Shown in pieces: positions 6,948 to 10,745 of a stretch of 64,000 nucleotides of DNA. The DNA is from Bacteroidetes bacterium ADurb.Bin037 (GTDB lineage: Bacteria > Bacteroidota > Bacteroidia > Bacteroidales > UBA932), in the NCBI GenBank assembly GCA_002071175.1, contig MWER01000008.1, positions 1-64,000 on the forward strand, given 5' to 3'. Under the pieces are notes generated by a model. That model saw only the letters and a program-made list of their open reading frames with translations. It searched no databases and was not told the origin of the DNA. Each line of letters begins with the position of its first letter. Positions within the stretch are counted from its first letter, which is position 1. A program made the translations under genes and the position numbers.

Positions 6948-9900
6948 ATGTTACGCAACATCTTTGTTTCTTTCATTTTTTCCCTTCTGTCTTTCCTTCC
7001 CCTTTCATCACAACCCGGTATAATAGCCCATAGGGGATTCTGGACCAGAGAGGGATCTGCACAAAATTCCAGGAGTGCTGTACGGAACGCCATCCAGGAG
7101 CATTGCTATGGAGCCGAAATTGATGTCTATCTGACAACTGACGGCAAAGTGGTACTGGTGCACGATCCGGTACTTAACGGAAAAAGAATAGACGAAAGTT
7201 CTTATGGTGAACTTTCGGACCATCTTTTAACCAATGGGGAAACCATCCCGCTGCTTGATGAAATTCTACCGTTTATTGCTGCATCCGACCATACAAAATT
7301 GATCATTGAAATCAAACCGCACCGTGACCAGATCACAGAAAAAGCAGCCGTGGTAAAGGTTTTGGATTTAGTTAAAGAAACAGGCACCGAAAATAAAGTG
7401 GAATACATTAGTTTTTCGTCACATATATGCGAAACGATCATCAATTCCGCACCCGGCGCCCGTGTAGCTTACCTGGGAGGATCTCTGACCCCGGACCAAT
7501 TAAAAGAAAGAGGTTATTCCGGTCTTGATTACAATATGAGGGTGCTCAAAGAAAATCCGTGGTGGATTCCCCGGGCACATGAACTTGGATTGACGGTCAA
7601 TGTCTGGACAGTAAACCGTCCTGAAGATTTTCATTATTTTGTCCTATCGGGAGTCGATTACATTACTACTGACTATCCGCTTTACCAGTGCAAGAAAATA
7701 TGGCAGGATCCGGAACTGAACCAGATCAATCGCGCACCCATGCGCACTTCATATCAAACTTATGAGACACTACCAACGGCTCTTGCAGGCTGCAATGATT
7801 CCTCTATGTATTTAAAAGACCTGGGAGGTCTCTGGAAATTCTCCTGGACACCGAACGCAGACCAGGGGTACAGTAATTTCCAGGATCCCGGATACGATGA
7901 CAGATCGTGGGCCCTGATGCCCGTTCCCGGACTCTGGGAACTGAACGGATATGGAGATCCGCTTTACCTCAACATGGGATATGCATGGGCTAACCAATAT
8001 AGGTCCAATCCGCCGCTGGTGCCTGAGATCAACAACCATACGGGATATTACCGGCACACTTTCACCGTACCTCAGGAATGGAACGAAAGGCGGGTTTTTA
8101 TACATTTCGGATCGGTCACTTCCTGTATGGCCCTTTGGATAAACGGCATGTTCGTCGGATATTCTGAAGACAGCAAATTAGAAGCGCAATTTGACATTAC
8201 CCCTTATTTGCGGGCAGGAGAAAACCTCCTGGCTCTGAAAGTATTCCGCTGGTGCGACGGAACATACCTGGAAGACCAGGACTTCTGGCGGCTGAGCGGA
8301 ATAAGCAGGGACGTATACCTGTTTTCCAGGGAAAAAATACACATTCAGGATTTTATCCTGGATCCGGTCCTGGATAACAGTTACAAAAACGGCACCCTTG
8401 ACATATCCGTAAGTCTTAACAAGCCTTCAGAACATATGCACGTACGGGCAGAACTGTTCGATCAACAAGGCGTCAGCCTGGGACTAAAAGATCTTGGTGT
8501 AAGTGACAGGAACAACTGGACAGGCAATTTTTCCATAAAAAATGTAAAAGCCTGGTCTGCAGAACTGCCGCATCTCTATACGCTTGTCCTTTCACTTGCC
8601 GACAAAAGCACAGGCAGAGTTGTTGAGTTCATACCCTGGAAAGTAGGTTTCAGGAGTGTGGAAATTAAAAATGCACAGTTGCTTGTCAACGGACAACCGA
8701 TACTGGTCAAAGGCGTAAACAGGCACGAAATGGATCCGGCTACCGGATATCACGTATCACGTGAACGCATGATACAAGATATTCAGCTGATGAAACAATA
8801 TAACATCAATGCCGTCAGAACAAGTCATTATCCAAACATACCCCTGTGGTATGAACTGTGCGACCGGTACGGACTTTATGTTGTAGATGAAGCAAATATC
8901 GAATCTCATGGCATGGGCTACGGGGAAAAAACATTGGCTGTCAGGTCCGATTTTACGCAGGCACACCTGGAAAGAATTGACAGAATGTACCAGAGAGATA
9001 AGAACCATACCTGTGTGATCATATGGTCTATGGGCAATGAAGCCGGAGACGGGGACAATTTCACAAAGGGATATGAGGTTCTTCGTCGCGCCGATGTCCA
9101 GAAAAGACCCATACAGTATGAACGTGCCACCAGGCCGGAGATCTCGGACATCTTCGCCCCCATGTACAGGAATTACGAGAACTGTATCCGTTACCTTGAA
9201 AACGATCCTCAAAGACCATTGATACAATGCGAATATGCTCATGCTATGGGCAATTCCCTGGGTGGATTCGGACGTTACTGGGAAATCATACGTAAATATC
9301 CCTCCTACCAGGGAGGATTTATCTGGGATTTTGTTGACCAGGGGCTTCATCTTTGGAGGCCGGAAGGCCATTACGTCCATGCCTACGGAGGGGATTATAA
9401 CCGGTACGATGTCTCTGACCAGAATTTCAATTGCAACGGATTATTCGGTCCCGACAGGGATCCCAATCCCCATGCCGCAGAAGTCGCTTACCACTACCAG
9501 GACGTGTGGGTCAGGGATATTGATGTGCTCAATGGCAGGATCGGGATTTTCAATGAGTATTTCTTCCGGGATCTGTCTCATCTCTCATTGGAATGGGAAC
9601 TGATCGCCAACGGGGTGCCCGTATTGCGGGGACATGTCCCGCACCTGAAAACAGCTCCGCAACAAACAAGCACCCTGGATCTGGGATACCGTTCCTCCGA
9701 CCTGGAAACATACCGGGAATACGAGTTGTTTCTGAATATATACTTTTCCACCCGTAAGGCCGAAAACCTTCTGCCGGCAGGCACAGTCCTTGCCAAGGCA
9801 CAGCTGCCTGTTAACCTGCTCCAAACTCAAGACATTCCCAATGTTCCGGAACAGGGACCCGTATTTAAAATAAACGACAACGACCGCAACTGGCTGATAG

Positions 9901-10745
9901 CAGATGCAGGGAACATGCATGTGGAGTTCAGCCGCCGGAACGGATTTGTTTCCCATCTTTCTTTCGGGGGCAAAAACATTCTTCTGGACAACACCCAACT
10001 TACGCCTAATTTCTGGCGGGCTCCTACCGACAATGATTTTGGGGGATCACTCCAATTGAAATACAGATCATGGCTTGCTCCTGAAATGGAATTTAAAGGC
10101 TTTGAGATTGACGCAAATACCATACGGGCTACTTATAAACTACCTCAGCTACAGGCAATGCTTCTCCTGACATACAGTACCGATCCGGAGGGAGGACTGC
10201 GCATCACACAACAACTTGTAACTGAAGCCGGTGAGGAAGAAGCACGGCAAATGCCCCCTATGTTCCGTTTTGGGATGCGGTTTTTCATGCCTAAAAAATA
10301 TGACCGTCTGACCTATTACGGCAGGGGTCCCGGAGAAAACTATCAGGATAGAAAAGACGGTGCTTTTGTCGGTCTTTATGAGCAAAGTGTTTCCTGCCAG
10401 TTTTATCCTTATGTGAAACCCCAAGAAACCGGAACAAAGACCGACATTCGGTGGTGGGAACTGCTGGATGTGTCCGGAAAGGGAATCCGTGTAGAAGCAG
10501 ATTCCCCGTTCTCGGCTTCGGCTCTTCATTATACGATGGAGACATTGGATGACGGTCTTTCAAAGCATAACCGTCACTCCCGTGACCTGAAAGAAGAAGA
10601 TCTAACACAATGTTGCATAGATCTTCGCCAGATGGGAGTGGGGGGCATCAATTCCTGGGGAGCGCTGCCCATGTCACAGCATATGTTACCATACGGAGAT
10701 TATACATTTACTTTTTCAATATTAGATAGAAAAAACAGATATTAA
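6948..10745 (+). CDS. Fused glycerophosphodiesterase + GH2 beta-galactosidase
   Basis: A 1265-residue exported protein of two enzymes. Residues 1-22 form a signal peptide. Residues 24-246 are a GDPD TIM barrel with H28, R29, E57, D59 and H72 of the HRG/ExD/HD motifs. Residue 250 onward is a complete LacZ-type GH2 enzyme: sugar-binding jelly roll (about 285-500), Ig-like domain, catalytic barrel with acid/base E698 (WSMGNEAG) and nucleophile E762 ([11 protein letters not shown]), and the C-terminal beta-galactosidase small-chain domain (about 985-1260). The LacZ half begins exactly where a mature exported Bacteroides-type enzyme would, its own signal replaced by the GDPD. The GH97 gene follows after one base. 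The fusion suggests substrates carrying both a glycerophosphodiester and a beta-galactoside; this is inference. Confidence 0.9.

Follow-up and report, generated by a model that had tools for sequence, protein, structure and literature searches.

The window analysed here, the first 64,000 nucleotides of contig MWER01000008.1 from Bacteroidetes bacterium ADurb.Bin037, contains a gene in which a glycerophosphodiesterase (GDPD) domain stands in frame before a LacZ-type beta-galactosidase. This raises the question whether the two enzymes really form one protein, and what substrate could call for both. To judge from the sequences compared below, the fusion is genuine, a predicted exported two-enzyme chain that is fixed in its genus.

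Two complete enzymes in one reading frame

The reading frame at 6948-10745 on the plus strand was open throughout and encoded a single protein with the following parts.

6948..10745, plus strand: GDPD-GH2 fusion gene, 1265 residues (ORF, Pfam, full-length orthologues in 12 further genomes of the genus)
6948..7013, plus strand: signal-peptide-like N-terminus, residues 1-22 (read from the sequence; hydrophobic in 13/13 orthologues)
7017..7679, plus strand: GDPD domain, residues 24-244, with H28, R29, E57, D59, H72 and E121 (PF03009, 3no3)
7680..7700, plus strand: spacer of 7 residues (245-251), fixed in length and variable in sequence (alignment of 13 orthologues)
7701..10742, plus strand: LacZ-type GH2 beta-galactosidase, residues 252-1265, with catalytic E698 and E762 (Pfam, 3dec/6sd0, NF052611)

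The signal-like stretch lacked a lipobox cysteine. Residues 28-244 matched the Pfam GDPD profile PF03009 with 72.5 bits, above the cut-off of 23.6, and the closest solved structure of this half was 3no3 (E 1.8e-51). Behind it, all five Pfam domains of the LacZ architecture were found: GH2 N (289-460), GH2 Ig (464-569), the GH2 TIM barrel (571-853), LacZ domain 4 (867-955) and Bgal_small_N (988-1258). The LacZ part was complete over residues 252-1258 and matched the solved beta-galactosidases 3dec and 6sd0 with E values of about 1e-195. The NCBIfam equivalog profile for Bga2A, NF052611, scored 989.7 bits, just below its cut-off of 999, and the protein was therefore not assigned as Bga2A. Bga2A-type LacZ proteins of Bacteroidota (NF052611; 3dec, 3bga) match the fusion over its whole GH2 part and share the catalytic glutamates. 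Ordinary LacZ of this phylum has its own signal peptide and no GDPD, whereas the fusion has GDPD in front. Likewise, the standalone Bacteroidota GDPD (3no3) shares the domain and the active site with the fusion, but it is a single-domain protein without a glycosidase and ends about 10-20 residues past the TTDxP motif. The reading frame and the Pfam matches agree with the preliminary description, which had seen here one chain, exported by the look of its N-terminus, with a complete GDPD and a complete GH2 beta-galactosidase.

That description had also named H28, E57, D59, H72, E698 and E762 as active-site residues. All were found at these positions and were invariant in 13/13 orthologues, as was E121, where the GDPD family is expected to have its third metal ligand. 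As in GDPD enzymes in general, H28 and H72 would be the catalytic histidines and E57, D59 and E121 would bind the metal. The LacZ glutamates, acid/base and nucleophile, lie within the motifs GNEAG (E698) and CEYAH (E762). In an AlphaFold2 model of the joined protein, built from 13 homologues, the GDPD barrel came out well and the LacZ part poorly (mean pLDDT 56, pTM 0.34), too weak a prediction for locating one active site against the other.

At the junction, P244 is followed by the spacer and then by W252, which opens the LacZ stretch 'W-x-D-P'. The arrangement was the same in all 13 orthologues, with GDPD ending at the same proline and LacZ starting at 'WxDP' seven residues later (WQDS in one member). 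In unfused LacZ of other genera the signal peptide directly precedes the 'WxDP' stretch, and the LacZ part of the fusion therefore starts at the mature N-terminus, in line with the earlier claim that the signal peptide of LacZ is gone. Since this signal peptide was missing in all 13 fusions, more than the loss of a stop codon must have taken place, and the earlier dismissal of such a loss as the sole origin stands.

Conservation within the genus

A search of 61 related genomes recovered the full-length fusion in every genome of the genus (13/13). The proteins of the 12 relatives were 61-82% identical to that of the window over the whole chain, and their reading frames continued uninterrupted through the GDPD-LacZ join. 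Most of the genomes compared were draft MAGs, and the records of the relatives came from separate MAG projects (Bact_09, ADurb.Bin013, ADurb.Bin139, UBA5226, UBA1374, UBA5326, UBA5433, DTU002, AS-series, WOFB08). Because 12 further genomes carry the same full-length frame, misassembly and chance were excluded as explanations of the gene.

No member of the genus had split the fusion again (13 genomes). None of the 13 genomes yielded a PF03009 gene other than the fused copy, so the genus is without a free GDPD as far as the drafts show. In close pairs, dN/dS was about 0.06-0.13 for the GDPD half and 0.12-0.15 for the LacZ half, and among close relatives GDPD was conserved better than LacZ. Read from these substitution ratios, the joined gene is kept by purifying selection.

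One genome of the genus (G010) had a second LacZ match, with 3 TAA upstream, which was considered as a broken fusion. This was rejected: the match is a LacZ of the usual unfused kind, signal peptide included (L124:3959-7048, minus strand), located beside a galactokinase match and a GH43 protein. Fused and unfused LacZ thus coexist in this genome.

Distribution outside the genus

When a profile of GDPD and the junction was run against a sample of 399 genomes of the family, junction-spanning matches were found only within the genus among the matches listed. With the first 421 residues as the query, no junction-spanning match was listed outside the genus in a sample of 393 genomes of the order, and a sample of 395 genomes of the phylum gave no GDPD-GH2 fusion among the matches listed; these three scans reach the best matches, and a very divergent fusion may have been missed. 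Outside the genus, GDPD and LacZ were separate genes and LacZ had its own signal peptide. Where a genome listed both, they were on separate contigs or at a distance of tens of kb. An adjacent GDPD-lacZ pair, as a possible ancestral state, was found in none of the relatives listed or inspected outside the genus.

The domain order that the preliminary description had proposed to look for in other genomes was thus present in all 13 genomes of the genus and absent outside it, as sampled. Separate genes with a signal peptide before LacZ, which it had counted against a real fusion, occur outside the genus and nowhere inside it in place of the fusion. With the fusion confined to the genus and separate genes elsewhere, we regard it as a derived genus-level trait as far as sampled.

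GDPD fused to other glycosidases

The protein of PDB entries 7ww4 and 7wwc, a 'beta-1,3(4)-glucanase' of Pedobacter terrae, has an N-terminal GDPD of the same subfamily, which matched residues 24-247 of the fusion (E 2e-44). It was crystallised with laminarin, and the structure has no accompanying publication (PMC12448869). Like the fusion, such proteins have GDPD followed in frame by a glycosidase, but this glycosidase is a GH16 glucanase, whose structure is unrelated to that of GH2 LacZ. Of the long open frames picked from the phylum sample for inspection, 7/7 had the GDPD-GH16 layout (L142-L148, seven genomes), six of them with an export-signal-like N-terminus. Two genomes of the family of the window encoded a GDPD-GH31 fusion (L125:1364-4837 and L126:1645-5118, both minus strand). 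It likewise combines an N-terminal GDPD with a glycosidase, in this case a GH31 alpha-glycosidase whose best solved match was 7wj9, and its GDPD domain was only 37.5% identical to that of the GH2 fusion.

The GH2 fusion has the layout of this group, an N-terminal 3no3-like GDPD and then an in-frame glycosidase; GDPD-glycosidase fusions of Bacteroidota form an architectural class and not a single gene family. In a tree of GDPD domains, the GH2-fused proteins grouped together (100/99), and the GH16- and GH31-fused ones fell outside this clade. A joint clade of GH2 and GH16 fusions was not rejected (p-AU 0.3), and for GH2 and GH31 fusions the p-AU was 0.104. The GDPD tree was therefore not taken to show that the GH2 and GH16 fusions arose independently, and only their unrelated partner domains show that they differ. 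Since the partners elsewhere are GH16 and GH31, this GDPD is not tied to beta-galactosides.

Full-text searches in part of the literature turned up no paper that describes a fusion of GDPD and beta-galactosidase. GDPD-glycosidase fusion as an architecture is already known, and GH2 LacZ appears to be a new partner within what was searched. The GDPD-GH16 form is apparently a widespread, undescribed architecture that has a solved structure.

The same GDPD subfamily was also seen C-terminal to GDSL-esterase, metallophosphoesterase, LamG-like and BACON domains (L060, L083, L097, L100, L110, L127-L129, L053, L054, L046, L088), as a widely reused module. At one locus (L135:2225-4312 and 5366-6295, both minus strand), a standalone GDPD lay between a type I phosphodiesterase and an ORF for an alkaline phosphatase that had a GDPD_2 match as well.

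Gene neighbourhood and metabolic context

The genes closest to the fusion were the following.

4028..5227, minus strand: exported-type alpha/beta hydrolase, secretory-lipase-like (Pfam LIP and Abhydrolase_6, weak but above cut-off)
5268..6338, plus strand: aldose 1-epimerase (mutarotase) (PF01263; synteny in 12/12 loci of the genus)
6317..6904, minus strand: cyclase / arylformamidase-like protein, divergent neighbour (PF04199; synteny in 12/12 loci of the genus)
10747..12741, plus strand: GH97 retaining alpha-galactosidase, 1 bp past the fusion stop codon (NF053844, 3a24)

The GH97 protein scored 861 bits with NF053844 (cut-off 800), matched PDB entry 3a24 with an E value of 3e-203 and has an Asp at the position mutated in 5e1q. 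Its gene adjoined the fusion in every relative of the genus whose contig extends that far. The cyclase-like protein scored below the cut-off of TIGR03035 and had no evident functional link to the fusion. The lipase-like hydrolase was found in 9/12 loci of the genus, was incomplete in L039 and was undetected in L042-L044. In L039 (3677-4237) the middle of the gene was missing, with query residues 143-324 unmatched, as if it were decaying.

No SusC/SusD or lipid transporter was found among ten genes scanned around the fusion with Pfam (151-20955), the stretch 13288-18259 being judged in the SusC/D check by reading translations. A SusC/SusD pair beside the enzymes, as in a SusC/D-type polysaccharide utilization locus, was not seen among these genes.

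Galactokinase was above cut-off in 11/13 genomes of the genus, including that of the window, so galactose is likely a product that the cell uses. Neither glycerol kinase nor GlpT was above the curated cut-off in any of the 13 genomes (G000-G012), and glycerol or glycerol-3-phosphate is therefore no obvious carbon prize. The payoff of the GDPD half would then have to be phosphate, the alcohol or galactose. All 13 genomes retain GDPD despite this.

A proposed role in head-group clean-up

The explanation we favour, to which we give about even chances, is that a single bifunctional hydrolase is exported, most likely to the periplasm, and cleans up head groups with galactose and glycerophosphate. 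In the ancestor of the genus, a GDPD gene would have been joined in frame to that of a secreted LacZ-type beta-galactosidase, and the signal peptide of GDPD would have taken the place of that of LacZ. The GDPD half would cut glycerophosphodiesters, the GH2 half would take off terminal beta-galactose, and the adjoining GH97 enzyme would remove alpha-galactose. The freed galactose would be mutarotated and enter the galactokinase route of the cell. The most economical joint role would be the clean-up of small polar head groups bearing galactose and glycerophosphate, left by the breakdown of membrane lipids or glycerol-phosphate polymers of other organisms. For example, digalactosyl lipids would supply alpha-Gal-beta-Gal-glycerol while phospholipids supply glycerophospho-alcohols, or alternatively a glycerophospho-galactoside would be cut by both halves in turn. 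On the predicted activities, periplasmic salvage of galactosides and glycerophosphodiesters is a likely role; action of both halves on one substrate that contains both bonds is plausible.

We favour joint action on lipid head groups since just these two galactosidases would be required for alpha-Gal-beta-Gal-glycerol and since LacZ accepts galactosylglycerols. In PMC8333865, beta-galactosidase is described as able to degrade galactosylglycerols from chloroplast galactolipids, which Egel, cited there, proposed as a reason to keep lac. The GH97 gene directly downstream and the repeated fusion of the same GDPD subfamily to glycosidases count for a shared substrate, and the nearby mutarotase and lipase-like hydrolase and the galactokinase in 11/13 genomes for the clean-up role. 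Against this role, glycerol kinase and GlpT are above cut-off in none of the 13 genomes, the lipase-like gene is on the opposite strand and undetected in three loci, no SusC/SusD or lipid transporter was among the ten scanned genes, and the export signal could be all that GDPD and LacZ have in common, each with a substrate unrelated to that of the other.

Sequence offers few hints at what an exported LacZ acts on in nature, and a fixed two-enzyme fusion is one of them. Should both halves act on one substrate, the fusion would point to glycerol-linked galactosides over lactose, much as Egel has long suggested for LacZ (cited in PMC8333865). A second point of interest is that GDPD-glycosidase fusions recur in Bacteroidota as an apparently undescribed class, with a crystal structure available for one of them. 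A further-reaching reading, which we find rather doubtful, is that the fusion would serve specifically to process glycerophospho-galactosides or galactosyl-glycerols in two steps, and that the GH2, GH16 and GH31 fusions would as a class be the sign of a so far undescribed pathway for glycerophosphate-bearing glycans or glycolipids.

Alternative explanations

The two halves may act on unrelated substrates, each being needed separately, with the fusion fixed through a working export signal for LacZ or by drift after a deletion. This is a real possibility, though we hold it to be less probable than head-group clean-up. Every relative outside the genus has GDPD and LacZ as separate genes, far apart where both are listed, and the fused GDPD, as the only one in each genome, would be kept for ordinary diester scavenging anyway. 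The alkaline phosphatase and type I phosphodiesterase beside a standalone relative and the lack of a glycerol kinase above cut-off in the 13 genomes fit this explanation as well. However, the spacer has kept its length over 13 species with no re-split member, and GDPD fusions recur with unrelated glycosidase families, beyond what would be expected of an accident.

Alternatively, the fusion could dismantle teichoic-acid-like glycerol-phosphate polymers or glycerophosphate-decorated exopolysaccharides of Gram-positive neighbours, which seems unlikely. GDPD would trim the glycerol-phosphate chain from its end, and the alpha- and beta-galactosidases would remove galactose substituents. A precedent is the GDPD enzyme GlpQ, which was shown to hydrolyse teichoic acid exolytically when the polymer bears no substituents (PMC7086022), so that pairing GDPD with galactosidases would make sense. 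The GH16 and GH31 fusions would also fit a general 'deglycosylate and cut' module. Yet neither the fusion nor its surroundings showed a surface-exposure signal, a SusC/D pair or a cell-wall-binding domain, the polymers must first enter the periplasm, and GlpQ is presumably only a distant relative of the fused GDPD.

An assembly error or a lost stop codon in a single genome has a negligible probability, as the same frame is present in 12 other genomes from several MAG projects and the LacZ signal peptide is absent in all of them.
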